Part shown: positions 12,561 through 33,014 of the stretch, one piece after another
Layout: every line of letters starts with the position of its first letter
Numbering within the stretch: position 1 is the stretch's first letter
NCBI RefSeq assembly: GCF_026241105.1
Contig: NZ_JAPFFT010000007.1
Span: 1-64,000 of the forward strand
Source: Arthrobacter rhizophilus
Lineage (GTDB): Bacteria; Actinomycetota; Actinomycetes; Actinomycetales; Micrococcaceae
Direction: 5' to 3'
DNA: 64,000 bases
The notes under the pieces: generated by a model
The model's database searches: none
What the model saw: only the letters and a program-made list of their open reading frames with translations
What the model was told of the DNA's origin: nothing
Translations under genes and position numbers: made by a program

Positions 12561-12582
12561 TCCGTACCTCCTTCAGTACTTA

Positions 12583-16293: not shown

Positions 16294-16372
16294 CGTAGGT
16301 GTCCTTCCGGGGAGGGCTTGGGATCTATGTTCCGCTTGGCTTGTTCTCTTGGCTGATTGGCCGTTAGTAAGT

Positions 16373-16408: not shown

Positions 16409-16533
16409 AGTTTAGAGAAGGAGGGGTTGCGAGTCAAGGGGGTGTGGGTTTGGGATACCAAACACGTCCTGGAGGTCAAGCTGGGGGAGGCGCTCAATCC
16501 AAACGTGCGCACCGGGCTTGGGTAAGGCCGCTG

Positions 16534-16627
16534 CACCTAGACGCAACTCAGTGACCACCTATTTCGCGTCTTCTGACACCTAGATGGGGTGCAATGACCA
16601 CCTATTTTGCATGGTCTCACCACCTAG
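16534..16627 (+). promoter_or_regulatory. Phased CACCTAG/T operator array A
   Basis: Five boxes read CACCTAG (16534), CACCTAT (16556), CACCTAG (16577), CACCTAT (16599) and CACCTAG (16621). Start-to-start spacing is 22, 21, 22 and 22 bp, so all lie on one face of the helix. The last box is within TCTCACCACCTAG, which is identical to the last box of array B. It ends 77 bp before the bacteriocin start. Heptamers at 22-bp intervals recall SARP-type activator sites of actinomycetes, but no SARP gene is in this window. Confidence 0.8.
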
Positions 16628-16704
16628 ACGGACATGTCAGGCCTTTGGATTGGTCACGGGATCGGGTTATCCGGTCCCAGTCAAACCAGCTCCAAGGAGG
16701 AATT

Positions 16705-16980
16705 ATGGAAACAACGATCCGCCCCTCGAAGAAGGCAATGACTCTCGCAACCGCAGTGAGCGTTGCGGGCCTCGGCCTGGCCAGTGTGAGCGTCATGTAC
16801 ATCGCCGGCATGTTCGGCCTGTCCAGCGCATTAGCCTCACAGATCGTAAATGCTGTGGAAGTCGGTGGAATTGCCCTCGCAATCGTGATGGGGGTACTTT
16901 CCGGTGGCGTGGCAGCGGGGGTCATCGCGACTGCGCGCTGGGCAATTTTCCAGTTTGGTAAGCGGGCGGCCGTAGCCTAG
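16705..16980 (+). CDS. Circular bacteriocin precursor, AS-48/circularin-like
   Basis: A 91-aa peptide. A leader of about 34-36 residues with a hydrophobic core precedes a mature region of about 56 residues starting near MFGLSSALAS. FGLSSALASQIVNAVEVGG lines up without gaps with the enterocin AS-48 segment FGIPAAVAGTVLNVVEAGG, and the C-terminal GKRAAVA with its GKRAVIAW. AAGGAGG lies 5 nt before the ATG. Known members are cut from the leader and joined head-to-tail, forming a compact helical bundle that permeabilises membranes. The terminal aromatic residue of AS-48 is absent here. The following genes encode membrane proteins and ABC transporters expected for maturation, export and immunity. 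Confidence 0.85.
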   Translation: METTIRPSKKAMTLATAVSVAGLGLASVSVMYIAGMFGLSSALASQIVNAVEVGGIALAIVMGVLSGGVAAGVIATARWAIFQFGKRAAVA

Positions 16981-17003
16981 CCGCCGCAACGAGGGTACCT
17001 AAA

Positions 17004-17582
17004 TTGCGCATGAGCGTCAGGAACGGCGACAAGCCATTGCTCCTCATTGCGATGATGCTGTCCCTGGCGCTCATGCTGGCCGGATTCATCATCGGATTCC
17101 AAACGGATCTGGCGGCACAATCCGAGCCGCATCAACCGGCGCCCACTGAAGCAGGGCTCACCTGGCTGTCTGTCCTGGGACGGATTCTCGTGACAAACAT
17201 ACCGGCCTTGTGCCTTATATTCTCCGGCGTCATTACGGGGGGCATCTCGACGTTGATCGCGTGGCCGCTTACAGCCATCTACATCGGCTCCACAATGCGG
17301 ATCGGTCAAACTCGCTTGGGAATAAGTGAAGTTGTGGACTCGATTTGGATTTATGCTCCGATCGAATTTCTAGCACTTCTGTTGGGTGCCGGTGCCGGGC
17401 TCATGCCCCTCACTGCCGCCGTCCGGTCGGCCCTCTCCACTTCTGAGCACGCAAGGCCGTTGCAGCAATATCTGCACACATTCCCATTTGCCCTCAAGAT
17501 CTTGGGCATTGCTTCAGTCCTACTCCTAGCCGCGGCCCTCCTCGAAGCCACGGTTCTAGCCACAAAAGGATTCGCCCCATGA
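17004..17582 (+). CDS. SpoIIM/DUF95-type membrane protein of the circular bacteriocin cluster
   Basis: A 192-aa membrane protein with four to five hydrophobic segments (about 12-30, 58-80, 85-98, 115-135 and 165-185). The ISTLIAWPLTAIYIGSTMRIG and IWIYAPIEFLALLLGAGAGL segments match the stage II sporulation protein M (DUF95) family, found in nearly all circular bacteriocin clusters and needed for maturation or export. I took TTG 17004, with GAGGG 10 nt upstream; ATG 17010 is an alternative. Its stop overlaps the next start (ATGA at 17579). Confidence 0.75.
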   Translation: MRMSVRNGDKPLLLIAMMLSLALMLAGFIIGFQTDLAAQSEPHQPAPTEAGLTWLSVLGRILVTNIPALCLIFSGVITGGISTLIAWPLTAIYIGSTMRIGQTRLGISEVVDSIWIYAPIEFLALLLGAGAGLMPLTAAVRSALSTSEHARPLQQYLHTFPFALKILGIASVLLLAAALLEATVLATKGFAP

Positions 17583-18157
17583 CGTCATCTTCAATGAGCG
17601 TGCAACAGGCAACCGAAGGGAAGCCCTCCCGGACGTTGTCAAGGAGCACAGCACCCTTTGTTTGGATCTGTTCCGCTGGGGCACTTTTAGGTCTCCTGCT
17701 GCTGAGGAGCCAACAACTTCACGGGGCTGTGTCAGTCAAAGTTGCACAGACTGATGCGGCTAGGGCGATTAGCGACCCGGCGGTTACCGAGCTCGCGGTG
17801 AATGTTGGGTTCTACCTCGGAGTGGTTCTCTCGACGGTACTTTCGACGCTGTACTTTTCGTTGATATCCACCGCTGAGAGCAGCTTCTTTCCCGGGCTGA
17901 AACGTGGAGGACTCCGTTTCCGAGTTGGCCTATTAGGCTGCACAGCGGTCGTGTCCCTGCTTGGCGTCCAACTCGTCAGCCTGCTGTTGACGCTCTCATC
18001 CCCGAAGGACCACTGGTTGACCTTCCTATACGTGGCTCTCGTGGGCGCGTGCGCTCCCTTCAATTTCCGAAAGCAATGGTCGGGATCTTCCTCCAAAACC
18101 ATTGCGGCTATTTTCGCTGCCTCGATCGCAACCGCAGCCGTTTCTCTGGCTCTCTGA
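17579..18157 (+). CDS. Membrane protein of unknown function in bacteriocin cluster
   Basis: A 192-aa protein with a polar N-terminus of about 25 residues and about four hydrophobic segments (28-43, 72-95, 113-135 and 143-190 in two parts). I recognise no family. It is coupled to the SpoIIM gene by a 4-bp overlap and followed by another small membrane protein. By position it could assist circularisation or secretion, or be part of immunity. Confidence 0.65.
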   Translation: MTSSSMSVQQATEGKPSRTLSRSTAPFVWICSAGALLGLLLLRSQQLHGAVSVKVAQTDAARAISDPAVTELAVNVGFYLGVVLSTVLSTLYFSLISTAESSFFPGLKRGGLRFRVGLLGCTAVVSLLGVQLVSLLLTLSSPKDHWLTFLYVALVGACAPFNFRKQWSGSSSKTIAAIFAASIATAAVSLAL

Positions 18158-18177
18158 AACCTAGAAGAGGTCTGATA

Positions 18178-18537
18178 TTGATTTACTCATCAACGGTCCG
18201 AACTATCGCCACTGTTTCTGTGCTCGCGTGCATCGAGGGCAGCATCGTCGTTGGGCTCCATAACGAACCGAAGACTCCTGTGCTTGCATGGGCATCTTTG
18301 GCCGCCGGCGCGGTCGCCCTGCTGGTAGTGCTCGCTACAAAACGAAGTCCGAAGCGCGATGCTGTCCTATTCATGATTTGCGGGATGGGTGGCGGTGTGT
18401 TCATAGCGGCCTCGACCGTTGGCTTCCCCGGATCGCTTCCGATATGGCTTTGGACGATCGGCACAATGTCTATCGGAACCGTGGCGATCATCGTGGATGC
18501 CGAGTCGGCTCAAAGCAAATCCGTCAATCGTCTCTAG
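18178..18537 (+). CDS. Small membrane protein of unknown function in bacteriocin cluster
   Basis: A 119-aa protein with about four hydrophobic segments that fill most of its length and a polar C-terminus (VDAESAQSKSVNRL). I chose the TTG at 18178 because AGAAGAGG lies about 8 nt upstream; a longer frame would overlap the previous gene by over 100 bp with non-hydrophobic sequence. No family is recognised. Small multi-helix proteins next to circular bacteriocin genes often provide immunity, so this is a candidate. Confidence 0.6.
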   Translation: MIYSSTVRTIATVSVLACIEGSIVVGLHNEPKTPVLAWASLAAGAVALLVVLATKRSPKRDAVLFMICGMGGGVFIAASTVGFPGSLPIWLWTIGTMSIGTVAIIVDAESAQSKSVNRL

Positions 18538-18546
18538 GCGTCGGCA

Positions 18547-20067
18547 ATGGGAAGTTTGAGAGCGGCTTACAAATTCACCGGGGTGCGCCTGCTGGCGGTA
18601 ACCGGATGGCCGATATCTATTCGCACACTCGTGGTCCTCGGCGTGAGCATGGGGATTGCGTTTACCTGTGTTGTTCTGGCCGGATCGCTATTTGTGATGC
18701 GGTTGCTTCGCGATGCCCTGTCCTTCGACGGCACGGGAACCAATGCGAGCAGCGGTGCAACGATGACAATCGTCCTGTTGGCGCTCGCCGTCTGCCTCTA
18801 TATCTCCGTTGGTGCGCTCGCGCGCGAAGCACTCAGCAGCCGGAGATTTGCGGTGCGTTTTAGTCCGAACCGAGAGCTCTACCGAGCGACAGATGTTTCG
18901 ATGCACCACGTCTTCCTCGCCGAGGGAGGTCCGCGAGCTGCCTTCTTGTTTGGATTATCAGCCGCCGTCTGTACCGCGGCCTGGGTTGTTGTGCATGAGG
19001 AGCATGGAGGCGGCGGTCCGCTGACCCTGGCCCTCGTGGTTGCCCCGTTCGCCTTGACCGCGGCTTGGCTTGCCTTGAGTTCCAAGCTAGCCGCAAGTGA
19101 TCCTCGTATTCCGAGCCTGGTCCTCGGCTCGCTTGCCTTCGCCGGCGGCTTGCTCCTTGCCGCGTTCCTAGGAATCGGAGCGGCCCGAGGGTTGCTTGCG
19201 TTGAATCGTGCAGCGCTTGGGTCGTACCTGCCATTCAACGCAACCGGTGCGGAGGGGTACTGGATCGCGACCGCAGCGGCGATCGCCGTCGTCGTATTTT
19301 CCTTCCTCGCAATCCGGAACGTTGGAGCGATCAGGAGGGAATCGTTTCCCGTGAGCGCGCGCGTGCCGCGACGGCGCGGGGGAGATTCCGTATGGAAGAC
19401 GACGACGCCGGTCGTCATGCTCTGGCGGGCCCTGATAGTGAATCTCGTCAGGGACAAGTCGTTTGCCCTTTTCCGTGGAATCGGGATCTGCCTGCTTTTG
19501 GCGGCTGCCGCTGCGGTCGGCTTTCGCTTGGGCGGGATCGGGCCGGAATTCCTTCGGGAGGTCCCCGGAATTCAGAATGTTGCTGCCTGCATCGTTTTCA
19601 TGGCGGGAGTTGTGGGGAATGAACTCATGTGCAAGGCGAACAATCCGATCGGACTTCTTCCGCAATTGAGGTACGGCTGGGAATCCGGGTTCGGCCTCAA
19701 TTCTCTGGTGTGGGGCGTAATCCTGACACAGTCTGTGCCGCTGGTGCTGCTTACTGCACCGGCGATGGGAGTCGTTGTCTGGGCTGCAACCGGCGTCCTG
19801 CCCATGGCGACTCTCCTGATTCCGTGGTCGATTGCCGCCAGCAACATTGTTGGAAACGCCTACAGCAAGGTCAAAGTCAGGCAAGCAGACGGCTCGATGG
19901 AAGTGTCTCTCGCGGCAGCGTTCATTGCCTTGCTGATTGCCGCTCCGGTGCTCGGGCTTTTCCTGTTGGGCAACATCCCCGCAACCATTGCCGCCGTCGT
20001 TTACACGGCTCTTCTCACTGGAGGTGCAAAGATTTGCCTGCAACGCAGAATTCTCTCCCAGAAATAG
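18547..20067 (+). CDS. Large multi-pass membrane protein, probable ABC transporter permease
   Basis: A 506-aa protein with roughly 10-12 hydrophobic segments throughout. A cytoplasmic basic loop lies near residues 255-290 ([20 protein letters not shown]). I find no catalytic motif. The next gene, an ABC ATPase, starts inside its 3' end (TTG 20034, 34 bp before its stop), so the two are translated together and probably form one exporter. It would export the circular bacteriocin or protect against it. Confidence 0.7.
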
Positions 20068-20714
20068 TTTTTGATCGCGTGTTTGCCGGATACTCCGCTG
20101 AGCGCCCCATCTACGAAAACGTCTCCTTCGAGTTCACCGGACCTGCCTTGATTCACTTGCAGGGCAAGAACGGATCCGGAAAATCGACCTTCGTCGAACT
20201 GGCAAGTGGCTATCTGTCTCCGTGGGCCGGAACGGTTCTGGTCAACGAGACGAGAGCCGATGACCCTGGAACTAGGAACAGACGGAGGGTGTGCCGATCT
20301 GAAGCTGCCCTGTTCGCTCAGATGACCGCCCGCGACCACATTGTCTTCGCCTGTATTGCCCGAGATGTCGATCCTGGCCCTGAGATACTCCGGGCGACAC
20401 AGCTGGGGATCGAACCGTGGCTGGGCGAGAACGCGGGCAACCTGTCCACTGGAAATGTGCGCAAACTTTGGTACGTCATGAACACCGTTGGCCAGTTTGA
20501 TTGCGTGGTCCTGGACGAGCCGTTCAACGGCACTGACGCCGAAGGCGTGGCCTACATGGTTGAGGAGATCAGGCGCTGGGCCGAGTCCAAACTCGTGGTT
20601 ATAGTGACCCATTCACTTCAGGACTTGCTCCCCGAAGCCATCACGGTCCGTCTTGAAGATCTCAAGTCGCAAACCGCTAGTGGGTCGCGCGATGGAAGCA
20701 TGGGCGCGAAATGA
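20034..20714 (+). CDS. ABC transporter ATP-binding protein (bacteriocin cluster)
   Basis: A 226-aa ATPase. Walker A is GKNGSGKST, the signature is NLSTGNVRK (degenerate against LSGGQ), Walker B is [14 protein letters not shown], and the switch His is in IVTHSL. I chose TTG 20034 because GGAGGTG lies 8 nt upstream and the family fold begins directly after it ([13 protein letters not shown]). It is the partner of the 506-aa membrane protein. A second, different ABC system follows at 20711. Confidence 0.8.
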
Positions 20715-21634
20715 GAATCGTCGTTGATGGTGTCGGGGCGAGCTACGGCGCAAAAGAGGTGCTCCGGGACGTCTCCTTCGCTCTGAACCCGGGAGAGATA
20801 GTCGGGCTCGTTGGTCCCAACGGCCATGGCAAGACCACATTGATGAAACGGATGCTCGACCTAATTACGGGAACTGGTCAAACCACTTTTGACGGAATGC
20901 CTTACCGTGCCCTGACACGTCCACAGTTGAGGGTGGGATCGCTGCTGTCCACGGAGGCGTTTCACCCTGGCCGGTCCGCTATGAACCATCTTCGGATGGT
21001 CGCGGCAGCTTCCGGCATATCAAAACGAAGCGCTGAGTCCGCGCTAGCCCGCGTAGGGCTCAGCGAGTATGCGGCGAAGTCACCTGCCTCCTACTCAATG
21101 GGGATGAAGCAACGTCTCGCACTTGCAGCGGCGCTGATGCCAGACCCCCAAGTGCTGATCCTTGACGAACCGATCAACGGCTTGGATGTGGACGGTGTTC
21201 ATTGGTTTCGAAACACAATCCGCAGCTTGGCGGGGGAGGGCAGGACCATCTTGCTTTCAACGCATATTTTGAGCGAGCTGGAGAAACTCGCAGATCGTGT
21301 GTTGGTTCTGCACGGTGGACGTCTCCGGGCTGATTGTCCGATGGAAGAACTCAAGACAACGGCCTCAGGTCCAACGGTCAACGTCACTGTGGACCGTCCC
21401 GCGGAGTTTGCCGCTCGATTGGGCGCAGAGGATGGCCTGACAGTGACCCTCCAGGGGGAGTCTCTAGTCATTGACGGAATGACGGCGAGAGACGTGGGCT
21501 CTCTGGCCAACAAATTTGGCTTCACCCTCTTTGAACTATCAACGACGCTTCGCACCTTGGAGGACGGCTACAACGAGATTGTAGGCGCCGGGGACTCTGG
21601 ACATGATCAGCAGGGGATATGGGGTAAGCCATGA
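20711..21634 (+). CDS. ABC transporter ATP-binding protein, BcrA/CcmA-like
   Basis: A 307-aa ATPase with Walker A GPNGHGKTT, signature YSMGMKQRL, Walker B VLILDEPINGLD and H-loop LLSTHILSE, followed by an 80-residue C-terminal extension typical of drug and bacteriocin resistance ABC proteins. The start overlaps the previous stop (ATGA at 20711) and its own stop overlaps the permease start (ATGA at 21631). It probably forms an immunity pump with 21631-22410. Confidence 0.88.
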   Translation: MRIVVDGVGASYGAKEVLRDVSFALNPGEIVGLVGPNGHGKTTLMKRMLDLITGTGQTTFDGMPYRALTRPQLRVGSLLSTEAFHPGRSAMNHLRMVAAASGISKRSAESALARVGLSEYAAKSPASYSMGMKQRLALAAALMPDPQVLILDEPINGLDVDGVHWFRNTIRSLAGEGRTILLSTHILSELEKLADRVLVLHGGRLRADCPMEELKTTASGPTVNVTVDRPAEFAARLGAEDGLTVTLQGESLVIDGMTARDVGSLANKFGFTLFELSTTLRTLEDGYNEIVGAGDSGHDQQGIWGKP

Positions 21635-22410
21635 GGGATGCGGTTCGCTACGAGCGGGTCCGGCTGACTACGACGCGTGGCTTCCACATTCTGACAGCAA
21701 TGACGATCTTGGTATCCGTCCTAGTCAGTTGGGCGATGTCAGTGATGATCGCCAACATGGCGCCAGAAATGACCGCCCAGGCTGCTGGCGAGGCGGCCAC
21801 GGTGGCAGCCACCCGTTCTCCCCTGGTGCTCCTTGCCCCGGGCCTGCTTGGGATCTTCTCTTTTGGACAGGAGAAGCGTTACGGAACGCTAGCCATGGCA
21901 CTGCTGGCCATACCTCAACGGGGCACCCTGTTCGCGGCCAAGTTGGTGATGACGTTGCTGACAGCCACAACTTGGACGACCGTGTCGATGATGATGTCCG
22001 TGATTGTGTCGAATGCTGTCCTGGGGAGCTCGAACCTGTTCGAATCCGACCCACCGGTTCTGATCGGCTGTCTGATCCTCGCGAACGGATGGGCTCTCCT
22101 TGGAATCGGCGTGGGACTGCTCTTGCCTCGAACTGGGGCTGTGGCCATGTTGGTAGCTGGATCTGCATTGGTAGAGCCGCTGCTGGGCCAGTTGGTGGAA
22201 AGAACCGAGCTGTGGGGAACGTCTGCAGCAGCGTTCCTCCCGTTCCGGGCGGGATCGTCGCTGATCAGTTTTGCCGACCCAGCTCTCGCGACGGTCGTGG
22301 CGGAAACTGCTCCTCGCCTGCCGGCCTTAACCGGCGGAGGGGTGTTCTTCCTCTATGTCGGGGCCCTCCTTCTGGCGGGGTACAAGAAGGGTCTCGGGAA
22401 AGCTCAATAG
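21631..22410 (+). CDS. ABC-2 type permease, putative bacteriocin immunity
   Basis: A 259-aa membrane protein with about six hydrophobic segments (about 20-42, 60-80, 100-125, 140-160, 170-190 and 230-252). The layout matches ABC-2 permeases that pair with BcrA-type ATPases. It is the last gene of the circular-bacteriocin half; the next gene starts 207 bp later behind operator array B. Confidence 0.8.
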   Translation: MRDAVRYERVRLTTTRGFHILTAMTILVSVLVSWAMSVMIANMAPEMTAQAAGEAATVAATRSPLVLLAPGLLGIFSFGQEKRYGTLAMALLAIPQRGTLFAAKLVMTLLTATTWTTVSMMMSVIVSNAVLGSSNLFESDPPVLIGCLILANGWALLGIGVGLLLPRTGAVAMLVAGSALVEPLLGQLVERTELWGTSAAAFLPFRAGSSLISFADPALATVVAETAPRLPALTGGGVFFLYVGALLLAGYKKGLGKAQ

Positions 22411-22451
22411 GGATCAACGCCGGCGGCCATCACGGTCGGATGAAAATCCTT

Positions 22452-22566
22452 CTAGGTGCAAACCGTCGATTTACACCTAGGCCCGCCGTCAGCCACACCT
22501 AGATTGGGCGATCCCACCCCTAATTCCGGTCTCCGGGCACCTAGTTTCACCCATCTCACCACCTAG
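22452..22566 (+). promoter_or_regulatory. Phased CACCTAG operator array B
   Basis: Boxes start at 22474, 22496, 22538 and 22560 (all exact CACCTAG). A degenerate copy, CCCCTAA, lies at 22517 and an inverted copy, CTAGGTG, at 22452. Successive starts are 22, 22, 21, 21 and 22 bp apart. The last box sits in TCTCACCACCTAG, as in array A. TAGTCT at 22583-22588 could be a -10; if so, the last box would occupy the -35 position with a 17-bp spacer. The array precedes the daptide genes. Confidence 0.8.
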
Positions 22567-22617
22567 GCCCGTTTTGGCGTCATAGTCTCCTTCACGAGGA
22601 CGGACCCGGCAGACCGA

Positions 22618-23697
22618 ATGTTGGCGGGCCGCCGTGACGAACGTATGCAGCGGACAACTATTGGGGGTTGGGAATTGAAGCTGAGTCAGCAACAGACCAT
22701 TGCAGCAGCTGTGGACCAGTGGATTACGGGCATTCCCGGGCGAATACCGGATCATGCCATCTTCGTTGAGGATCCCGGACATGAGCCGTTTGCAAAGGAA
22801 CTTGCCGGCGAGCAGTCGATCGTCCTTGTGCTTGACGGCGGCGGGGAAGATGATGTGGTCATCCCAGTCTCCGGGCTCTTCGATGTCGCAGGTGAAGAAC
22901 TCTTGGTTGGTGGAACCCTCAGTCTGGAGATCCAGGACTATGTGGCCATTCCGTTCGTCAATCTCATCGGCGTCACGGTAGTCAGGATTACCACGGCTGA
23001 AGACTGGCAGGCCTTCTTCGATGACGCGGAAGAATCCCGACGATCGGGCTACTTTGTGCGACAGCTCACCGAAGTGAACGCCGTTCTTGCCGAGCGGGGC
23101 CTTTTGGACGGCCGCCCAGCTACCGGTTCCTCGCTGGCAAGGCTCCACATCACACGAGACGGAAGGGTACTCAGCGGACCCTACGGAACCCAGATCGGTT
23201 GGGCCGGAGACTCCTTGGCCGACATTCACAAAAGGTGCCTCGCGCTCCAACCGGAGTCTTCGCTCGCTTCCGTCTGTGACGTTGACATGATTCGTAAGTC
23301 CCTTGGCGCCAGGCCTTGGATTCCCCGCTATTTGGCGGCATTGGATGCTTGGAAGTTCATTCCCCAGGGCAATCGCGCCGATACTACGCTGGTCGGTTTC
23401 GGTGCCAGTCTCTACGGCGCATCGCCTACTGATGATCTCCCATCACCGCGCGCACCCTTCATCATCCACAGGGCAGGAGAGCACACGCTCCTAGACACTG
23501 CGTCCGGACGGACTTTCAGACTCGGACCTGATGCCGCAGCGATCATCGAGGCACTCTCGAATCTGCGGGATGTCCAAGCCGCCGCGTCCGCTGTAGCAGC
23601 TCCGCTGGGCATTTCTGCAGCGGTTGCCGAGGAATCCGCACGAGTGATTCTCGCGCAGTTCGAGCAGGCAGGCGTGGACGTTTTCGGCGCCAGCTGA
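22618..23697 (+). CDS. Daptide biosynthesis RiPP recognition protein (MpaC-like)
   Basis: A 359-aa protein. Residues about 280-355 (HTLLDTASGRTFRLGPDAAA... to the final GVDVF) have the pattern of a PqqD-like RiPP recognition element, which binds precursor leaders. The first 270 residues match no catalytic family I know. In the daptide pathway, MpaC escorts the precursor for the dehydrogenase MpaB. Position directly ahead of an aminotransferase, a dehydrogenase and Thr-ending precursors supports this. The ATG at 22618 has no good ribosome site; ATG 22645 is possible. Confidence 0.75.
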   Translation: MLAGRRDERMQRTTIGGWELKLSQQQTIAAAVDQWITGIPGRIPDHAIFVEDPGHEPFAKELAGEQSIVLVLDGGGEDDVVIPVSGLFDVAGEELLVGGTLSLEIQDYVAIPFVNLIGVTVVRITTAEDWQAFFDDAEESRRSGYFVRQLTEVNAVLAERGLLDGRPATGSSLARLHITRDGRVLSGPYGTQIGWAGDSLADIHKRCLALQPESSLASVCDVDMIRKSLGARPWIPRYLAALDAWKFIPQGNRADTTLVGFGASLYGASPTDDLPSPRAPFIIHRAGEHTLLDTASGRTFRLGPDAAAIIEALSNLRDVQAAASAVAAPLGISAAVAEESARVILAQFEQAGVDVFGAS

Positions 23698-23751
23698 ATT
23701 CCGAACCTCCACTTTGCCGGCCACCCGTCGAACTCAAAGGACTAACAACCG

Positions 23752-26252: not shown

Positions 26253-26256
26253 GCAA

Positions 26257-26400
26257 ATGAACAACACCATCGCGCCAAGGCTTCTGGACCTCGAAATCCA
26301 GGAGCTGGAAAGCATCGACGTTCCAGACGACTGGAGCGAACGTATCCACGGAATCACCGTAGGGCTTGCTTTGGTCGGAATCGCCGTCACCATCACGTGA
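26257..26400 (+). CDS. Daptide precursor peptide 1
   Basis: A 47-aa precursor. The leader holds LDLEIQELESIDVPDD and the hydrophobic core region (about 24-47) ends GIAVTIT with C-terminal Thr, the residue converted to dimethyl-propanediamine in known daptides. AGGGGGTGA lies before the ATG. It shares the E-hydrophobic-E-S/N-x-D-x-PD leader pattern with the next two peptides but its core differs and contains a charged SERIH stretch. Too short for most gene finders. Confidence 0.82.
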   Translation: MNNTIAPRLLDLEIQELESIDVPDDWSERIHGITVGLALVGIAVTIT

Positions 26401-26451
26401 TGAGCAGCCGGCCGAAAGACCAGTCAATCGACACAGGGGGAGGTGAAAGCG

Positions 26452-26577
26452 ATGCAGGAACAGCTCAATATCTCAATCCAGGAAATTGAGTCCATGGATA
26501 CACCGGACTTCAACAATTGGTTCATCGGCGTGTCCCAAGGGGTGGCTATAGGCATCATTGCCGTCAGCATCACCTAG
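26452..26577 (+). CDS. Daptide precursor peptide 2
   Basis: A 41-aa precursor starting at ATG 26452, with GGGGGAGGTGA upstream. The leader has ISIQEIESMDTPDF, and the core NNWFIGVSQGVAIGIIAVSIT ends in Thr. The shortest of the three, with an almost uncharged helical core suited to membrane insertion. The CACCTAG at its stop codon is coding (Thr-stop) and not part of an array. Confidence 0.84.
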   Translation: MQEQLNISIQEIESMDTPDFNNWFIGVSQGVAIGIIAVSIT

Positions 26578-26629
26578 GCGGAAGCAAGGCCGACTATCCA
26601 AGACACCAAGACGATCGAGAGGAGGGGCA

Positions 26630-26767
26630 ATGATCGCAACATCAAACCTTCAGCTGACCATTGAAGAACTGGAGAACCTCGATACACCTGACGACACACC
26701 GTGGTACATCCGCGTTGGCGACGTCATCATTATCGCCGGCATCGTCGTCGGCATCGCTGCGACCTAG
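26630..26767 (+). CDS. Daptide precursor peptide 3
   Basis: A 45-aa precursor starting at ATG 26630 behind GAGAGGAGGGG. The leader LQLTIEELENLDTPDD is the clearest copy of the shared recognition pattern. The core TPWYIRVGDVIIIAGIVVGI ends AAT with C-terminal Thr. A frame 24 residues longer exists but begins in the spacer after precursor 2 and lacks conservation. Confidence 0.84.
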   Translation: MIATSNLQLTIEELENLDTPDDTPWYIRVGDVIIIAGIVVGIAAT

Positions 26768-26775
26768 CCAGTACG

Positions 26776-26810
26776 CGCGGGTGGTGAAGCGCTAGCGTTC
26801 GCCACCCGCG
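26776..26810 (+). terminator. Hairpin after the precursor genes
   Basis: CGCGGGTGG (26776-26784) pairs with CCACCCGCG (26802-26810), and the inner sequences are also largely complementary. No U-run follows, so some transcripts should read through. Such a hairpin between RiPP precursors and their modifying enzymes commonly protects or partly terminates mRNA, giving more precursor than enzyme. Confidence 0.6.
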
Positions 26811-26852
26811 TGAACTCCCCTCCCCACGTCTGACTCCCGAGAGTACGAGTTG

Positions 26853-27677
26853 ATGAGAACCGCAATTGACAAGACCGTTGCCGACATCCTGCGCGCCATT
26901 GGCCACGAGAGTCTTCCTGAGGATCTGTACGGCATTGAAGGGTCTCGCCTTTACGACAGGCTCACTTCCGACGATCTGTCCGAGCTTCCCGAGATTCTGG
27001 GCGCTGCACGGAAAACAGCCGGACCCATCCTCGAATTAGCCGCGGGGTCCGGCAGGATTACCCGGGCGCTCCTGGCTCTGGGGCGTCCCCTGACAGCAGT
27101 TGACTCTTCGCCGGAAATGCTTGAAATGCTCAGGCAAAGGGCTGAGACCCGGTCCTTTAATCCTCGGGGAGTCGCAGTGGAGGTCGTAGAGGCGGACATG
27201 TCCCAACTGCCTATTGGCGGCAACTACGGCTGCATCGTCCTGGGTGCCAGCTCAGTGACCCTTCTGACTCATGACCAGCGACGGGCACTCTTCGGCCGGG
27301 TCCGCGATTCCTTGGCCCCTGAAGGCCGCTTTGTGCTCACAGTCCTCGACGCCGACTCATCTGACCAGTCGCCGGAGGATTACGAGGGCTCGATTACTGG
27401 ATTCTCGGTGCTCGACGCCAATTCCATCCTCTTCAATCTTGAACGCCGGGACCCGGATAGCGGAGCAAGGCACGTGACCATGATCAAGATCGATTTCGAT
27501 GAGGGAAAGTCATACCGAACGGCCGCCTATGTCAGCGATGTGGCTTACGTCCGGAACGGGGTCATTGAAGCCGAGCTCTCCGCTGGGGGCTTGCATGTTC
27601 TCGAAAGAGGAGCTGTCCGGATCGCCTCGCCGGTCCCTTCCCTGAACAAGGTTGAGATGTGGGTATGCGGCAAATGA
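26853..27677 (+). CDS. Daptide-type SAM-dependent methyltransferase (MpaM-like)
   Basis: A 274-aa class I methyltransferase. The SAM-binding motif I is PILELAAGSGRITRALL, the acidic loop is LTAVDSSPEML, and the later motifs are VEADMSQLP and GCIVLGASSVTLL. In daptides the enzyme dimethylates the new C-terminal amine. A TTG directly before the ATG (26850) gives one extra residue. Its stop overlaps the YcaO start (ATGATGA at 27674). Confidence 0.84.
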   Translation: MRTAIDKTVADILRAIGHESLPEDLYGIEGSRLYDRLTSDDLSELPEILGAARKTAGPILELAAGSGRITRALLALGRPLTAVDSSPEMLEMLRQRAETRSFNPRGVAVEVVEADMSQLPIGGNYGCIVLGASSVTLLTHDQRRALFGRVRDSLAPEGRFVLTVLDADSSDQSPEDYEGSITGFSVLDANSILFNLERRDPDSGARHVTMIKIDFDEGKSYRTAAYVSDVAYVRNGVIEAELSAGGLHVLERGAVRIASPVPSLNKVEMWVCGK

Positions 27678-28921
27678 TGATCGACCCGGCACGGACCTTG
27701 GATCCCTCCCTCGGCCTGGTTTCTGACGCGCAGGTCTACGTCCCGAATGAGGTTGGTCTATGGCGCACGGTGGCGTATTTGGCCAACGCCCCGTGGGACG
27801 GGGAACATCCCAGGCTTTCTTCCGCCGTCGGAGCATTCGACGTCAACAGGCGATCCTCGGTGACCAGGGGATCCGGCGAGGCGGTGGAGCGCTTCGCGCT
27901 CGTTCCAGTGCCGGCCGATTCGGAACACCTCATCGTGGCCAACCCTTGCCACGAAAAGAGGATCGACTTCGTGGGAGCAGGACTAGGGCACCCCTCGGCC
28001 CTTGGCCTTGAGTTCCCGTGGTACCGGGCGACGGACCTGGTTTCCGGGACTGAGTCACATGTTCCCGCAGGGGTTGTGGACTACAACCCCTGCAAATTCC
28101 CGGAAGAAGGTCTTGCTGGTCAGTTGTTCGATCCATCTCCCAACGGAGCCGCCGCCGGACCCTCGGAACACTTCGCCATGACTTCCGCCGTGGCTGAAGT
28201 CATTGAGCGTGATGCCTTCTTGTGGGCTTGGCACAACAGGACACAGCTCAAGAAAATCATCATGGAAGACTTGCCGGCAGAACTGTCTGGTAATCCGGAC
28301 ACTCGCAGTCTCACTCGGCTCTTCAGAATCGCCCTCGACTCCGGTATCAACGCCAATCTTGCTTTTGTCCCGAACGACGACGGGCCATTGGAAATCGCGG
28401 TCAGCGTCATCATCGGTGACACGAAGCATGGACAGTTCGGTGCGGTCGGAATCAAGGCTTCCGCAGACCCTATTACGGCATTGAGGGGCGCGCTCCAGGA
28501 AGGGCTTCAAATCCGTGAACTCCTCCTGTCCAGATCGCTGTCCCCGGTTACAAGCCACGCAGCGGTGACAGACGACGAATCGAGAGCGGACTTCTGGATG
28601 ACGCGCCCAGCAATCGATGAACTTCGCGCATGGGTGCAGTCGTTCTCGAAGGCGCCACTGCCTCGTGCCCACCCCCAACCCGACGTGGACGATTTGGTGC
28701 AGCATCTGGCTCGGAAAGGAATCACTTCGCACTGGGTAAGCCTCACTCACAGGCTTCCTGCGGCGATACAAGAGATCGGCTGGCAAGCGGGCAAGGCGAT
28801 CTGTCCGGGTGCGTTCCCACTCACCATGGACGAATCCAAGCGACTGTCCTCGGTGCCGAACAGCTTTGACGGCCCGCCACGTCGGAACGCCTTCGCTTCA
28901 ACGCCACATCCGTTGATATGA
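27674..28921 (+). CDS. YcaO-domain protein in daptide cluster
   Basis: A 415-aa YcaO protein. ATP-site motifs are visible as TRGSGEAVERFAL (residues 64-76) and SAVAEVIERDAFLWAW (171-186), preceded by DPSPNGAAAGPS, as in azoline-forming YcaO enzymes. YcaO proteins use ATP to activate peptide amide oxygens and form azolines, thioamides or amidines. The C-terminus (ASTPHPLI) lacks the PxPxP tail of standard cyclodehydratases, and no E1-like, ocin-ThiF or TfuA partner is near. Start chosen at the ATG overlapping the methyltransferase stop; GTG 27659 is possible. I do not know YcaO as a core daptide enzyme. Confidence 0.82.
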   Translation: MMIDPARTLDPSLGLVSDAQVYVPNEVGLWRTVAYLANAPWDGEHPRLSSAVGAFDVNRRSSVTRGSGEAVERFALVPVPADSEHLIVANPCHEKRIDFVGAGLGHPSALGLEFPWYRATDLVSGTESHVPAGVVDYNPCKFPEEGLAGQLFDPSPNGAAAGPSEHFAMTSAVAEVIERDAFLWAWHNRTQLKKIIMEDLPAELSGNPDTRSLTRLFRIALDSGINANLAFVPNDDGPLEIAVSVIIGDTKHGQFGAVGIKASADPITALRGALQEGLQIRELLLSRSLSPVTSHAAVTDDESRADFWMTRPAIDELRAWVQSFSKAPLPRAHPQPDVDDLVQHLARKGITSHWVSLTHRLPAAIQEIGWQAGKAICPGAFPLTMDESKRLSSVPNSFDGPPRRNAFASTPHPLI

Positions 28922-30618
28922 GCCCCTACAGGAACGACGACACGGTGACACGACCCTCTCACTCTCGAACTACGATTCAATGGCCTGCACAGCTGGCTCC
29001 AACCGCGTCCATTGATGAGCCCCTGCGGGCCGGCGGGCCATGGATCGTGGCTCTGAACGGCGTGCCCAAAGCCAGGGTCTCTGCGGACGTGGCCAATGTG
29101 CTCAAAGTTTTGGACGGCAAGAAGGAACCTGCGCAAGTAGCTCACCACCTTGGCAGTCCATGGACTGCTGAGGACGTCATGGGGGTCGCTCGCCAATTGG
29201 TCCACACGGGTGTCTTCGATGTGACGGCAAACCAGGCAGAATCTCGCCGAGTCCAGTTCCGTGCGCCCCTCACCGTGCAGGTTACGTTGTTCAATCCCGC
29301 GCCGCTCCTCAACTTCTTCCGCCCGGCGGTTGCCGCAATGGCCCGTCCCGGATTCATCGCTGCGGCGGCTGTTCTCGTCGTCAGCGGCATCATCGGTGCT
29401 TTCATGGCGGGCCCGAACGTTTGGCGGGTACTGGCAACGCCACTTCCCTTGGAGGCCTATCTTTACGTCGCCACCGCGATGTTCGCGTCCACTTTGCTGC
29501 ACGAGCTCGGTCATGGAATGGCGCTCGTCTATTTCGGTGGCACGCCCAGACGCATCGGAATCATGCTCTTTTATCTGGCCCCGGCGTTCTTTTGCGACGT
29601 GACGGACGGCTGGCGACTCAGTTCGCCCAAACAAAGGGTGCTGGTGGCGCTGGCCGGGCCCTTGGTTCACCTCGGCCTTGGGAGCCTTGCGCTGGTGTTT
29701 CAGGGCATTCTGCCGGCGACGTCCCTTAAAGACGCCGCCATCCTCTACGGAATCATTTGCTACGCAATAGCCGTCTTGAACCTTTTTCCGTTCATCAAGC
29801 TGGATGGCTACGTGGCGTTGATGTCAGCTGTGGATATTCCGCACCTACGTCGAAAATCCATCGCCGCATTGTCAGACGTGGTCAGCTCCAGGTTTCTTGG
29901 TTCACGTATCAATACGGGCAACCAAGGTCTCCTGGCATGGTTCGGCCTTGCAAGCTTCTTGTCAGGCATCGCCTTCATGGTCATTGGTTTCCAAAGATTC
30001 GCACCGATCGTCCTGCAACTCGGCTACGCGGGAAACATTGTGGTCCTCGCTGTCTTTGTTCTTTTGCTTGTGTTGGCCTTCAGGGGAATCATCCAGTTTT
30101 TTCATTCGGCCTCAAAGAGCGGCAGCCCGACGTGGCGGCGGATTGGTTTCTTGCTCCTCGGAACCGCTGTCGCGGCAGGACTCCTCGTCGTGATTCCGAT
30201 CAGGTCTGTCGTCGTGGCCGGTTACACCTACATCAACGGAGAACTAAAGATCGTGACCCCCATCGAGTCGCCCGCTCAAGCGATCGCCCCGGGAGACAGG
30301 GTGACTTTGAAGTCCCAAGGAATGGTGGTTCATGAAGAACTGGGACAAGCCACCATCGGCGCAGAACCGCCGTCGAACTCGATTGCACCTGTGGAGACCA
30401 TCGTCCCGGTGACGTTTCCGGGCACGAATGTCCCTGTGCGTGCATACCCGGGAAGCCTTGAAGGTTCGGTGTCCCTCCCGGTCTCGGGACGAGCCGAGGT
30501 GACGGGCCAGAGGGATATGCGGCTGTGGGAGTGGCTCTGGGATGCCGCCTCGAATTCTCCGCTATGGCCAGGGAAATTCGGACAAGCCACCAAAGTCTCG
30601 ACGGAAGGGCAACAGTGA
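28918..30618 (+). CDS. Daptide intramembrane metalloprotease, M50 family (MpaP-like)
   Basis: A 566-aa polytopic protease. Residues about 35-105 (GPWIVALNGVPKARVSADVA onward) resemble a PqqD/RRE domain. The M50 catalytic motif HELGHG is at 195-200 and the third ligand in NLFPFIKLDGY (Asp296); about ten hydrophobic segments cover 145-430. The C-terminal 130 residues form a soluble, beta-rich domain, probably outside. It likely removes daptide leaders during export. ATGA overlap couples it to YcaO; 4 bp of overlap couple it to the ABC ATPase. Confidence 0.85.
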   Translation: MSPYRNDDTVTRPSHSRTTIQWPAQLAPTASIDEPLRAGGPWIVALNGVPKARVSADVANVLKVLDGKKEPAQVAHHLGSPWTAEDVMGVARQLVHTGVFDVTANQAESRRVQFRAPLTVQVTLFNPAPLLNFFRPAVAAMARPGFIAAAAVLVVSGIIGAFMAGPNVWRVLATPLPLEAYLYVATAMFASTLLHELGHGMALVYFGGTPRRIGIMLFYLAPAFFCDVTDGWRLSSPKQRVLVALAGPLVHLGLGSLALVFQGILPATSLKDAAILYGIICYAIAVLNLFPFIKLDGYVALMSAVDIPHLRRKSIAALSDVVSSRFLGSRINTGNQGLLAWFGLASFLSGIAFMVIGFQRFAPIVLQLGYAGNIVVLAVFVLLLVLAFRGIIQFFHSASKSGSPTWRRIGFLLLGTAVAAGLLVVIPIRSVVVAGYTYINGELKIVTPIESPAQAIAPGDRVTLKSQGMVVHEELGQATIGAEPPSNSIAPVETIVPVTFPGTNVPVRAYPGSLEGSVSLPVSGRAEVTGQRDMRLWEWLWDAASNSPLWPGKFGQATKVSTEGQQ

Positions 30619-31325
30619 AAATCCATGCCAGCTTTGACGGGTTCAGCAAGAAACGAGGCACAAGTTTCGCCGTCGAAGACTTGACGTTCGATGTACCGGC
30701 CGGGCGAATCGTGGGACTGATAGGACCCAACGGCGCCGGAAAGAGCACGGCCCTGGCGGGCTTGACCGGCCTGTTGGAGGCGACGTCCGGGCGTGCCACG
30801 GTCTTTGGAACTGACTACCGGACCCTGCACAGACCCGTCACCAAAGTAGGGGTGAACCTGGACGGAATGGACGTCGAGCCTGGGCTCACCGGCCGGCGTC
30901 ACCTGCAGATCTGTCGGCTTGCCGCCGGGACTCTGCCCGAGAGCGTCGATCGCGTCTTGGAACTGGTCGATTTGACCGCCCAAGCGAGCAAAAAGGTCCG
31001 GGACTACTCCCTCGGGATGAGACAGCGTCTGGGCATCGCCTCGGCAATCATCGGTGGCCCCAAGCTCCTGGTCCTCGACGAACCGGCCAACGGGCTCGAC
31101 CCTGATGGCATTCAATGGCTGCGATCGTTCCTCAGGGACTTCGCCAGGTCCGGGGGAAGCGTGCTGATTTCCAGCCACCAGCTGACGGAACTGGAACAGA
31201 TAGCCGACGACGTGGTCATCCTGAAGCGGCGGATGTTGTTCTGTGGGTCCGTTGAGAACGCCACTGCTGTTGGTGGCGGGAATCTGGAAGCCGCATATTT
31301 CCGGATTCTGGAGGGAGCCCGATGA
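30615..31325 (+). CDS. ABC transporter ATP-binding protein, daptide export or immunity
   Basis: A 236-aa ATPase with Walker A GPNGAGKST, signature DYSLGMRQRLG, Walker B LLVLDEPANGLD and H-loop ISSHQLTE. The BcrA-like motifs suggest drug or peptide export. I chose the GTG at 30615 (GAAGGG 5 nt upstream), which overlaps the protease stop; the upstream frame lies within the protease gene. It is followed by two permeases that likely complete one transporter. Confidence 0.88.
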   Translation: MKIHASFDGFSKKRGTSFAVEDLTFDVPAGRIVGLIGPNGAGKSTALAGLTGLLEATSGRATVFGTDYRTLHRPVTKVGVNLDGMDVEPGLTGRRHLQICRLAAGTLPESVDRVLELVDLTAQASKKVRDYSLGMRQRLGIASAIIGGPKLLVLDEPANGLDPDGIQWLRSFLRDFARSGGSVLISSHQLTELEQIADDVVILKRRMLFCGSVENATAVGGGNLEAAYFRILEGAR

Positions 31326-32071
31326 ACTACGAAGTCCATGCGGCTTTCGCCGGCGGCCTCCGGTCCGAGCTGCTGAGATACTTCAGCGGTTACTCCGCCC
31401 TCGGCATCCTGGCCTTCAGTGGGCTGGTGCCTTGGTTCGTGGCTAATTTCCTTGGCTGGCCCGATCATGCGGACAAGCTTTCATCGGCCCAAAACGTCGA
31501 GACGTTTTGGGCCCTCGCCGCGACGATCGCAATCGTTGCCACTTTCGCAGGAAGCTACCTCATAACCCGGGAAGCCTATTTTGGGACTCTTCGACGAAGC
31601 GTTGCCATCTCCGGGATGAGTCAGCTTGTGAGGACCAAGTACGCAGCCTCGCTGGTTGTCGGACTTTTCACGGCAGCTTCAGGCCTGGCTCTCTGGAGCG
31701 GCAGTACCGCGCTCGCAGTGTCCTCGGAAGTGCGCTCTGAACTTGTGGAAGGCGCCTCCTGGCAAGCTTTGCTCGGCGTCGTCGTCGCCTCATGGGTCGG
31801 GTGCTTGTGGGGTTGTTCACTCGGCTGGATCATCAGGCATTACTATGCAACCACGATCGTCACCATGCTGATTCCCCTCGCTTTGGAACTCCCCCTCATG
31901 GCGAACTTTCCTGAAATCGCCCGGTGGCTGCCGTCGGGAGCTTTGGCAGGGATCGCAAACCTGCCGATTGAGGGCCTGCTCGGACCGTTCCACGCATGGC
32001 TGGTCTCTCTGGGATGGCTGATTGCAGGAGGAGCAGGTGCGATGTGGGTGCTGCGGAGCAGGGGGGTCTAG
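31322..32071 (+). CDS. ABC-2 type permease A of daptide transporter
   Basis: A 249-aa membrane protein with about six hydrophobic segments, starting with a soluble 25-residue N-terminus. Layout matches ABC-2 permeases. ATGA overlap with the ATPase gene; the next permease starts at the very next base after its stop. Weak sequence resemblance to the following permease suggests that the two form a heterodimer. Confidence 0.8.
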   Translation: MNYEVHAAFAGGLRSELLRYFSGYSALGILAFSGLVPWFVANFLGWPDHADKLSSAQNVETFWALAATIAIVATFAGSYLITREAYFGTLRRSVAISGMSQLVRTKYAASLVVGLFTAASGLALWSGSTALAVSSEVRSELVEGASWQALLGVVVASWVGCLWGCSLGWIIRHYYATTIVTMLIPLALELPLMANFPEIARWLPSGALAGIANLPIEGLLGPFHAWLVSLGWLIAGGAGAMWVLRSRGV

Positions 32072-32788
32072 TTGGTCAACTATGCACCTGCCTTCTTATC
32101 TGACATGCGGCGCCCCTGGCTGTGGAAAGGATCAGCGGTCTGTGCGTTGCTCGTGGCTGGTCTGATCGGCGCCCTTGTTGTGGCCGCGGCAATCGGTTCC
32201 AAAGAAGACGGCGGCCAGGCGATGACGGGCGTAGATCGAACTCTCTTGGAAGCCGGCTTGTCGCTGATGCTTACCGCAGCGGCCGTGGTGGGCTCTTTCT
32301 CATTCACGTCGGACTTTGATACGAGATCGTTTCATCGACGCATCTTGATGTTCCAGCGTGGCGCGGCATTCACCGGACGAGCGGCCTCCATCACAGTCGC
32401 TGCCCTCGTGACGGGCGCAATTGTAGGGGTGTTTTTCGGGCTATCAGGGGAACTTGTGGCTAACCTGTGGCATGTCAGCGCCCCCGCCGTGCTGGCCTTC
32501 GCCGCGATGGCCGGAATCGGTTCGCTCTGGGGTTTCGCGATCGGTTCCCTCATCCGCAACCATTTCCTGAGCCTTTTTGTTGTACCCCTGAGCCTTGTTC
32601 TGCCGGCAGCTCTCGCCAGCCGGCTGGGACAATTCGCCGATCTTCTCTTCCCGAACCTGGTCACGGATTGGGTGAACCAATGGGCGTTGGGAAGCGTGAA
32701 GCTGGATTCCTTTGCGGGGGCAGTTACCTGGCTTGCCTGCTCGCTCGGCGGGGCATATTGGGTGTTTTTAAAGCGCGACCTGACTTAA
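32072..32788 (+). CDS. ABC-2 type permease B of daptide transporter
   Basis: A 238-aa membrane protein of about six hydrophobic segments, starting with TTG immediately after the upstream stop. GSFSFTSDFDTRSFHRRILMFQR is a typical ABC-2 loop after the second helix (compare SYLITREAYFGTLRRSVAIS in permease A). It should pair with permease A and the ATPase at 30615. Confidence 0.78.
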   Translation: MVNYAPAFLSDMRRPWLWKGSAVCALLVAGLIGALVVAAAIGSKEDGGQAMTGVDRTLLEAGLSLMLTAAAVVGSFSFTSDFDTRSFHRRILMFQRGAAFTGRAASITVAALVTGAIVGVFFGLSGELVANLWHVSAPAVLAFAAMAGIGSLWGFAIGSLIRNHFLSLFVVPLSLVLPAALASRLGQFADLLFPNLVTDWVNQWALGSVKLDSFAGAVTWLACSLGGAYWVFLKRDLT

Positions 32789-32816
32789 CCATTTACCGTT
32801 CATTAGGGAATTTACT

Positions 32817-33014
32817 GTGAAGCGTAATCCGGCCATTTGGCTATTACTCACCCTTATTTTTGGTTTCTACTCCATCTACGTCTTTTCCTCCGCACCCGGA
32901 GATTCATTGTGGGCCATCGTTTCCGGAGTGGTCCTCGTAGCGGGTTCACTGGCTTCGCTTTGGAAGTTCCTGCGCGATGTCAAGGCATCAAAGAACCAAA
33001 GAAGCGGCGAGTGA
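32817..33014 (+). CDS. Small two-helix membrane protein at end of daptide operon
   Basis: A 65-aa protein starting at GTG 32817. It has two hydrophobic segments (about 5-24 and 31-51) and a basic C-terminus (KFLRDVKASKNQRSGE). It follows the last permease by 28 bp on the same strand and ends the island. No family is recognised. A small membrane immunity protein is a reasonable guess. Confidence 0.6.
   Translation: MKRNPAIWLLLTLIFGFYSIYVFSSAPGDSLWAIVSGVVLVAGSLASLWKFLRDVKASKNQRSGE

Follow-up and report, generated by a model that had tools for sequence, protein, structure and literature searches.

Two peptide cassettes in an Arthrobacter rhizophilus island stand behind arrays of a common operator and likely share one STAND/LuxR activator

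We identify, in a 64,000-nucleotide stretch of Arthrobacter rhizophilus DNA (contig NZ_JAPFFT010000007.1, positions 1 to 64,000; hereafter the window), an island in which a gene cassette predicted to make a circular bacteriocin is followed by one predicted to make daptides, a type of ribosomally synthesized and post-translationally modified peptide (RiPP). We propose that these are two independent, complete cassettes, the second of the YcaO type, and that both are likely activated by one STAND/LuxR protein binding arrays of the heptamer CACCTAG; we put the probability of this reading at roughly three in four (0.77). The order is an array (16534-16627), the bacteriocin cassette (16705-22410), a second array (22474-22566), and the daptide cassette (22618-33014). 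Every gene of the island lies on the plus strand (Table 1), and its G+C content of 58.6% and 60.1% compares with 64.4% and 63.0% in the flanks. A sequence-only reading of the window had placed the two units in tandem, each behind its own array of one operator. Profile matches and coordinates bear out both cassettes, their boundaries, and their tandem arrangement, and an array of five boxes does precede each.

The arrays are a feature of the whole genome. Phased CACCTA pairs number six within the window, against none in each of 200 dinucleotide-preserving shuffles, and the operator is not private to the two units: arrays with the same boxes and spacing occur at six or more further places in the same genome, on contigs C7, C11, C35, C60 (two), and C77, and mark a genome-wide set of promoters. 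The genes behind them are mostly small and hydrophobic, such as a 52-amino-acid peptide followed by ATP-binding cassette (ABC) transporter genes and, by eye, membrane proteins of 84-156 amino acids; one array is followed by a short frame that opens like a bacteriocin leader. We surveyed 395 genomes of the family, 77 of them from the same genus, with G000 denoting the genome of the window. CACCTAG pairs at 21-23 bp occur in 15 of the 395; 12 of these are among the 77 same-genus genomes, and the other 65 have none. Across 45 arrays with 159 boxes, the spacings are 22 (45), 21 (40), 43-45 (28), and 23 bp (1). In 10 of the 45 arrays an exact TAnnnT stands 23-24 bp past the start of the last box, and no further offset within the 36 bp examined shows it, the box itself aside, a pattern that looks like that of an activator-driven promoter. 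A promoter and terminator scan found promoter-like sites at chance level (5 observed, 4.4 expected), and we therefore make no sigma-70 claim.

One gene, called at 865-870 amino acids, has an array about 70 bp upstream of its start in five of the array genomes, and the copy on contig C35 of the window's own genome (L004/L128) has boxes upstream too. Its product ends in a LuxR-type helix-turn-helix (HTH; PF00196 32.5, cut-off 23.5), and a sequence match to AAA_16 stays under its cut-off. The structure model (predicted local distance difference test, pLDDT, 81) ranks Avs3, Apaf-1, and the MalT-MalY entry 8bob first to third in Foldseek, with E from 2.6e-6 to 1.5e-5, and the protein is predicted from this model to have a STAND nucleoside triphosphatase (NTPase) fold. 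Homologs at E<=1e-80 are found in 21 of the 395 genomes; as orthologs we count the 14 at at least 53% identity, the group g7 and G289 lying at 42-49%. These orthologs fall in all 12 same-genus array genomes and in two more, G394 and G390, so that ortholog and array are strongly co-distributed (Fisher p=1.6e-18 over the 395 genomes). The latter two have no CACCTAG pairs; their arrays are of CACGGAG, CACTGAG, and CACGTAG. In both of them and in G341, a distance of 3.8-5.5 kb separates the regulator gene from a gene for a circular bacteriocin.

The recognition helix of the regulator and the type of box change together. At the central residue of RTVE-N-HIS, which we take from NarL-type domains to contact DNA, Asn is found in G000, in 11 further sampled same-genus orthologs, and in Arthrobacter sp. 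18067, and Ser in G394, G390, Arthrobacter sp. MA-N2, and the g7 homologs (which include G150). In the regulators' own arrays, positions 4-5 of the box read CT in 31 of 37 boxes before Asn-type genes and [GT][GT] in 22 of 24 before Ser-type genes. This tally covers 19 of 23 regulators, those with a chain of at least three boxes (G063, G341, G216a, and G186 have fewer than three phased boxes); the tree holds 31 regulators, the remaining eight being paralogs kept out of the tally (G216b, G162b, G377b, G063b, G289a, G361b, G289b, and G137b). Genome-wide, CACCTAG pairs number nine in G000, five in 18067, and zero in G394, G390, and MA-N2. Triple CAC[GT][GT]AG arrays are present in 3/3 same-genus Ser genomes and 3/6 of g7, and in 0/13 Asn and 0/4 ortholog-free genomes; the reversed control gives none in all 26. 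The peptide cassettes take part in the change: Ser-type boxes stand before the bacteriocin cassette in G394 and G390 and before the daptide cassette in MA-N2, and CACCTAG boxes stand at the cassette promoters of G000, G341, and G409 (the last typed by its boxes alone). Both types of regulator coexist in G390, each behind boxes of the matching kind: its second copy is Asn-type (49%), behind CACCTAA, CACTCAA, and CACTCAG. In the tree, G000 is sister to the three same-genus Ser genomes, which group together (98/89) inside the Asn clade, so the Ser change is most simply placed in the ancestor of that trio, apart from the deep split. We had considered the window's genome as the one that switched operators; the tree reverses this, as the Ser change lies in its sister group.

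Each cassette is found alone in relatives. Bacteriocin_IId matches occur in 17 of the 395 genomes (15 over cut-off) and the daptide aminotransferase, at E<=1e-90, in 12 (10 over cut-off). The two families meet in two genomes, with 0.5 expected under independence: they are adjacent in G000 and on separate contigs in G150. The YcaO-type daptide cassette is syntenic in seven same-genus relatives, and in G150 it lacks its ABC genes; the full eight-gene bacteriocin cassette recurs in G394 (78-88% protein identity) and G025 (30-72%). No partner unit lies next to these syntenic cassettes within the stretches fetched. Taken by itself, this solitary occurrence favors two independent cassettes. Their arrays follow the regulator: five of seven same-genus bacteriocin loci (in six sampled genomes) are array-led, all five in genomes with an ortholog, and the two without an array in the 340 bp examined belong to genomes without one (G198 and G320). 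All eight sampled genomes with a same-genus YcaO-type daptide cassette, the window's included, have an ortholog, and six of these cassettes pass a strict array test; in the other two (L057 and L060), two exact boxes and a few weaker ones are visible only by eye, a relaxed script having found none. The same relaxed scan found no array at the diverged daptide loci of G009 and G381 (its second locus). Just upstream of array-less bacteriocin genes at L041, L042, and L050, DNA resembles by eye the end of a NarL-type HTH gene, and such loci may use another regulator.

The left flank of the island holds a gene (15490-16299) that we take to be hyi, for hydroxypyruvate isomerase, and the DNA here is 85-95% identical in the relatives compared. 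The shared sequence stops at window position 16461 in G394, MA-N2, G402, G432, G423, and G425, and at 16444-16460 in G381, G467, and G459. The transporter on the right-hand side is present in 45 of 121 searched genomes; stretches from 11 were compared, 8 of which carry hyi as well. In this comparison tblastn matches below 33% identity were dropped, and a repeat without the filter for seven stretches added distant ABC ATPase matches and 25 codons of the gene for the RiPP recognition element (RRE) protein in G425. The occupant of this site in G394 is the bacteriocin cassette (82.7% over 5805 columns), and the G394 genome shows no daptide aminotransferase at the limit used; in G381 the occupant is the daptide cassette, and the genome gives no bacteriocin match. 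MA-N2 (L067) carries the daptide cassette (79.4% over 10576 columns) behind short scars left by bacteriocin genes G and H. Ahead of the daptide cassette of G409 (95.3% over 10597 columns) stand the array of the bacteriocin cassette, the opening bases of its precursor gene, gene D in shortened form, and the beginning of gene E. Given these scars, at least three species had both units at the hyi site, and two of them have, to judge by what remains, lost most of the bacteriocin unit. The earlier picture of one joined island therefore holds for G000 and is echoed in two further species, and it does not hold as a fixed pair, only one of the 395 genomes having the units adjacent. The halves are separate throughout that sample apart from G000; the two species with bacteriocin scars beside the daptide cassette lie outside it.

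Other relatives retain still less. In G425 the daptide unit is gutted: its array, the 25 RRE codons, and an intact copy of its final gene, R (68%), are left, gene D (73%) lies further along, and the genome has the look of an immune non-producer. G402, G423, and G467 have an array similar to that of the daptide cassette, with other genes behind it; in G432 there is gene D, along with an array on the opposite strand; G459 shows no array and no cassette gene except the distant ABC matches. Gene D is full-length in G432, G423, and G425 (66-73%), on stretches where no bacteriocin precursor or SpoIIM gene was found. Since D is kept in these three and, shortened, in G409, and R is kept in G425, we propose that both small membrane proteins may be immunity genes of non-producers. 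Between hyi and a symporter gene, the stretches L213-L217 hold arrays, small membrane proteins, and an FtsX/MacB-type transporter; small proteins tested from them gave no family match. We considered the probably secreted 160-amino-acid proteins at the site in G432 and G423 as lactococcin-972-like and dropped the idea, as they match nothing in Pfam or NCBIfam. The hyi site is thus a place where array-led cassettes come and go: the adjacency of the two cassettes predates A. rhizophilus and is unstable, and the units are separate and likely share a regulator more than a fate. With a confidence only slightly past even, we hold that the regulon has been rewired between relatives, Asn and Ser being swapped together with CACCTAG and CAC[GT][GT]AG boxes, those of the bacteriocin and daptide cassettes included, that the hyi site stacks and exchanges cassettes, and that some lineages gut production and keep D and R for immunity.

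In the mechanism that we propose, the regulator would oligomerize in the manner of MalT upon its signal, and the oligomer would bind the 22-bp-phased boxes on one face of the helix, with the promoter-proximal box in the -35 region. Levels of the regulator itself and of the entire regulon would thereby rise. From the bacteriocin unit, the leader would be cut, the ends joined, and the ring exported. In the daptide unit, the C-terminal Thr of the three precursors would be converted to an amine and methylated, and YcaO, by analogy, would close the amine to an imidazoline before removal of the leader and export.

Several observations weigh against this reading or narrow it. In the array search, the reversed-pattern control gave 9 matches against 48 real ones in the 12 array genomes, and CACCTAG pairs also turn up in three sampled genomes of other genera that lack an ortholog; we take these as chance, one being a 7-bp tandem repeat. 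No array was seen by eye upstream of seven of the left-out paralogs (41-44% identity, Ser-type), G289b, with Thr at the key residue, has mixed boxes, the triple array is absent in three of nine Ser-type genomes (G150, G186, and G216), and the array of the G000 regulator itself includes one CACGGAG and one CACTCAG box. The changes on the tree are few (four for Ser and two for Asn), and boxes within a genome and among relatives are not independent, so Fisher values overstate the association. Foldseek template modelling (TM) scores are low, 8bob (E=1.5e-5) reaching 0.21 by query and 0.40 by target, and we assume that its chain C is MalT. The AlphaFold model of the bacteriocin, in whose class the core forms a saposin-like helical bundle, is too poor to use (pLDDT 63, predicted TM score 0.32) and yields neither an AS-48 fold nor a significant fold match. 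In the interval from gene H to the daptide array the scan lists no terminator-like site, and transcription may therefore run on from the first unit into the second. Finally, the genome also encodes one LytTR regulator, and the arrays may conceivably have another binder than the STAND/LuxR protein.

LytTR and SARP proteins bind direct repeats at such spacings, and if one of these or some other regulator occupied the arrays, the STAND/LuxR gene would be a mere member of the regulon, array-led as any plain target would be. We consider this unlikely, given that ortholog presence matches the arrays across the 395 genomes and that the helix residue and the box type have shifted jointly at two places in the tree. 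That the two cassettes are chance neighbors, unrelated clusters inserted beside one gene, accords with the rarity of their joint occurrence and with each being complete and found alone elsewhere. Set against this are the single rare array type that leads both, the three or more species (the window's, MA-N2, and G409) that had both at the hyi site, and the array-led bacteriocin loci of ortholog-bearing genomes, and we judge mere coincidence improbable. The swapping, loss, and truncation of array-led modules beside hyi would also suit arrays that are chiefly recombination sites for cassette exchange and operators secondarily or not at all; many arrays, however, stand alone before single small genes elsewhere, and the placement of TAnnnT is as expected of promoters, which makes this the least probable of the explanations considered. 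We therefore retain two independent cassettes under one likely STAND/LuxR activator.

Table 1. Positions of the island's genes and arrays in the window, and of the gutted daptide unit in G425
Feature	Position	Strand	Basis
Operator array, bacteriocin cassette	16534..16627	+	five CACCTAG/CACCTAT boxes, exact CACCTA 5/5; spacings 22, 21, 22, 22 bp
Circular-bacteriocin-like precursor, 91 aa (amino acids)	16705..16980	+	PF09221 (Bacteriocin_IId) 29.6 bits, cut-off 23.6
SpoIIM/DUF95-like membrane protein	17004..17582	+	PF01944 27.8, cut-off 26.9
Membrane protein C	17579..18157	+	no family over cut-off (Pfam, NCBIfam); homologs in other bacteriocin cassettes
Small membrane protein D, 119 aa, candidate immunity protein	18178..18537	+	kept copies at hyi site of relatives
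Large membrane protein E	18547..20067	+	no family match (Pfam, NCBIfam); synteny
ABC transporter ATPase F	20034..20714	+	PF00005 49.7, cut-off 25
ABC transporter ATPase G	20711..21634	+	best NCBIfam match lantibiotic protection ABC ATPase 158.8, under cut-off 309.75; all NCBIfam matches shown under cut-offs
ABC transporter permease-like protein H	21631..22410	+	PF12730 19.1, under cut-off 27; synteny
Reversed extra box, daptide array	22452-22458		
Operator array, daptide cassette	22474..22566	+	five units, 4 exact; spacings 22, 21, 21, 22
Daptide RRE protein	22618..23697	+	NF041823 207.6, cut-off 150
Daptide aminotransferase	23752..25041	+	NF041821 555.8, cut-off 450
Daptide dehydrogenase (oxidative decarboxylase)	25038..26252	+	NF041822 327, cut-off 300
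Daptide precursor A1, end ...VTIT	26257..26400	+	NF041808 29.5, cut-off 25
Daptide precursor A2, end ...VSIT	26452..26577	+	NF041808 34.9, cut-off 25
Daptide precursor A3, end ...IAAT	26630..26767	+	NF041808 51.9, cut-off 25
Daptide N-methyltransferase	26853..27677	+	NF041820 237.5, cut-off 175
YcaO protein (DapY-like)	27659..28921	+	PF02624 102.3, cut-off 25.7; between methyltransferase and protease
Daptide intramembrane HExxH leader protease	28918..30618	+	NF041824 361.4, cut-off 300
ABC transporter ATPase	30615..31325	+	NCBIfam ABC matches, those shown under cut-offs
Membrane protein, likely ABC permease	31322..32071	+	no NCBIfam match; synteny in 7 same-genus relatives
Membrane protein, likely ABC permease	32072..32788	+	no NCBIfam match; synteny in 7 same-genus relatives
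Small membrane protein R, 65 aa, cassette's last gene, candidate daptide immunity protein	32817..33014	+	synteny; kept whole in G425
G425 remnants (array/R, gene D nearby)	L217 (reversed) 10032-10583 and 12345-12698		

The AS-48-like unit of the earlier reading is confirmed as a predicted circular-bacteriocin cassette by a precursor over the Bacteriocin_IId cut-off and by the gene context of class IId, in which a SpoIIM/DUF95 membrane protein and an ATPase adjoin the precursor. We infer a leader of about 33-35 residues and a core of about 56-60. The precursor scores 25.9 against NCBIfam TIGR03651, under the cut-off of 30.7, and for that reason is not placed in the circularin A/uberolysin subfamily. 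By phmmer it matches enterocin NKR-5-3B (2mp8; E=0.0035) and AS-48 (E=0.25); in an alignment of 18 precursors its branch is actinobacterial and 23-24% identical to two AS-48-type precursors, and it ends in VA. Plasmid and phage collections gave no match for it. The product of gene E is possibly the permease partner of ATPase F. Two loci elsewhere in the sample, L037 and L038 (G147 and G306), have AS-48-type precursors that end in KAVIAW, and an array scan of both found none.

Matches over the NCBIfam cut-offs for the RRE protein, aminotransferase, dehydrogenase, methyltransferase, protease, and precursors establish the daptide-type unit. A C-terminal Thr is present in all three window precursors and in 35/35 precursors found by script in 12 loci, the window included; the script missed one precursor of L060 that tblastn finds. 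A YcaO homolog occupies the equivalent position in eight syntenic relatives (L055-L062), and the protein ends in PHPLI in 11 of 13 copies examined, in PHPFI in one diverged copy, one further copy being interrupted. In two studied daptide clusters, YcaO is reported to divert an amine intermediate to a 3,4-dimethylimidazoline at the C-terminus, which in one cluster was the outcome for three of four precursors; for azuritides, shifts of -17 are given for the amine-modified end (Dmp) and of -49 for the imidazoline (Diz) (PMC12338566). An earlier study lists YcaO proteins as additional genes in major daptide subgroups (PMC10036551). Since this cassette has a YcaO like those of the two imidazoline-making clusters, a C-terminal dimethylimidazoline is probably, by analogy, the end product of at least some of the three daptides. 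The earlier reading foresaw conversion of the C-terminal Thr to a dimethylated diamine without naming the YcaO gene; the Thr and the enzyme set stand, and the diamine is probably not the sole end. The aminotransferase has seven records in a plasmid collection, at less than 60% identity, from Streptomyces and Actinomyces.

Among side observations on the daptide genes, an in-frame stop interrupts the YcaO gene (L211:14366 onwards) of the otherwise 95% identical cassette of G409. Array-led methyltransferases of G152 (L108:5894-6652) and G371 (L118:7965-8738) score 140 and 153.6 against the daptide methyltransferase family (cut-off 175); no further daptide gene was noticed beside them, and they possibly belong to another peptide class of the regulon. 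On C7 of the window's genome, the array-led 52-amino-acid hydrophobic peptide (L002:5317-5472), with an ABC transporter pair downstream, is bacteriocin-like by eye and has no meaningful NCBIfam match. A short frame on C35 (L004, after the array ending at 5829) starts like the second bacteriocin precursor type of G394 and G390 and may be a bacteriocin gene in decay. Small proteins of one family adjoin arrays at L114, L119, and L122, the L114 member matching peptidase inhibitor family I36 (35.9, cut-off 21.1), and arrays at L111 and L115 (G361 and G063) lie near gene rows with, by eye, WXG100-like products of 101 and 115 amino acids.

The set of arrays with its two box dialects is a stronger finding than the adjacency of the cassettes. 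It ties two peptide classes of unrelated chemistry to one predicted switch, for which a likely regulator gene can be named. It also offers a natural experiment, one residue having changed along with one type of box throughout a regulon, so that how a regulator and all its sites change together becomes a directly testable question. As a text search, the array leads to small peptides and cassettes that enzyme-based mining may miss. The earlier statement that no described cluster combines the two classes agrees with the literature that we searched, which included few subscription papers and in which no paper held both 'daptide' and 'circular bacteriocin'; in the same literature, none held CACCTAG with Arthrobacter, and no such regulon appeared in titles or the starts of abstracts.

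Known systems resemble each part of the island. With tfDap of Thermobifida fusca and saDap of Streptomyces azureus (PMC12338566), the daptide cassette shares the RRE protein, aminotransferase, dehydrogenase, methyltransferase, protease, transport genes, several Thr-ending precursors, and YcaO. It differs in having three precursors, a bacteriocin cassette in tandem, and a shared operator array, and in lacking the lanthipeptide-type genes of tfDap. The core daptide gene set is common to the mpa cluster of Microbacterium paraoxydans; the clusters pursued in that study had been selected for having primary modifying enzymes alone (PMC10036551), whereas here YcaO follows the methyltransferase. DapY is marked by a C-terminal PxPxP and by its own group in the similarity network; of the PxPxP, the PHPLI of the copies here has PxP only. 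The families of enterocin NKR-5-3B and AS-48 share with the other cassette the Bacteriocin_IId precursor, the SpoIIM/DUF95-like protein, the ATPase, and ABC genes, but AS-48 ends in Trp and the window precursor ends in VA without Trp. A 2020 survey counted 2 circular-bacteriocin precursors from Actinobacteria against 6,925 from Firmicutes (PMC8534725). An AS-48-like cluster with 71.3% identity to AS-48 has been predicted in Arthrobacter sp. APC 3897 (PMC10456417), so a circular bacteriocin in Arthrobacter is not new as such; that cluster belongs to another branch than the bacteriocin described here. MalT of Escherichia coli and MalT-like activators of Actinoplanes share with the candidate regulator an N-terminal NTPase, a long helical middle, and a C-terminal LuxR HTH, and MalT binds several sites per promoter, one at the -35 region (PMC10427625 and PMC7567727). 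The MalT box given there is GGGGA(T/G)GAGG, whereas the boxes here are CACCTAG, three to five at a 21-22-bp period, so we regard the regulator as MalT-like in build and not as MalT. Unlike those of MalT, its likely targets include antimicrobial-peptide cassettes, and its boxes come in two dialects tied to one residue.

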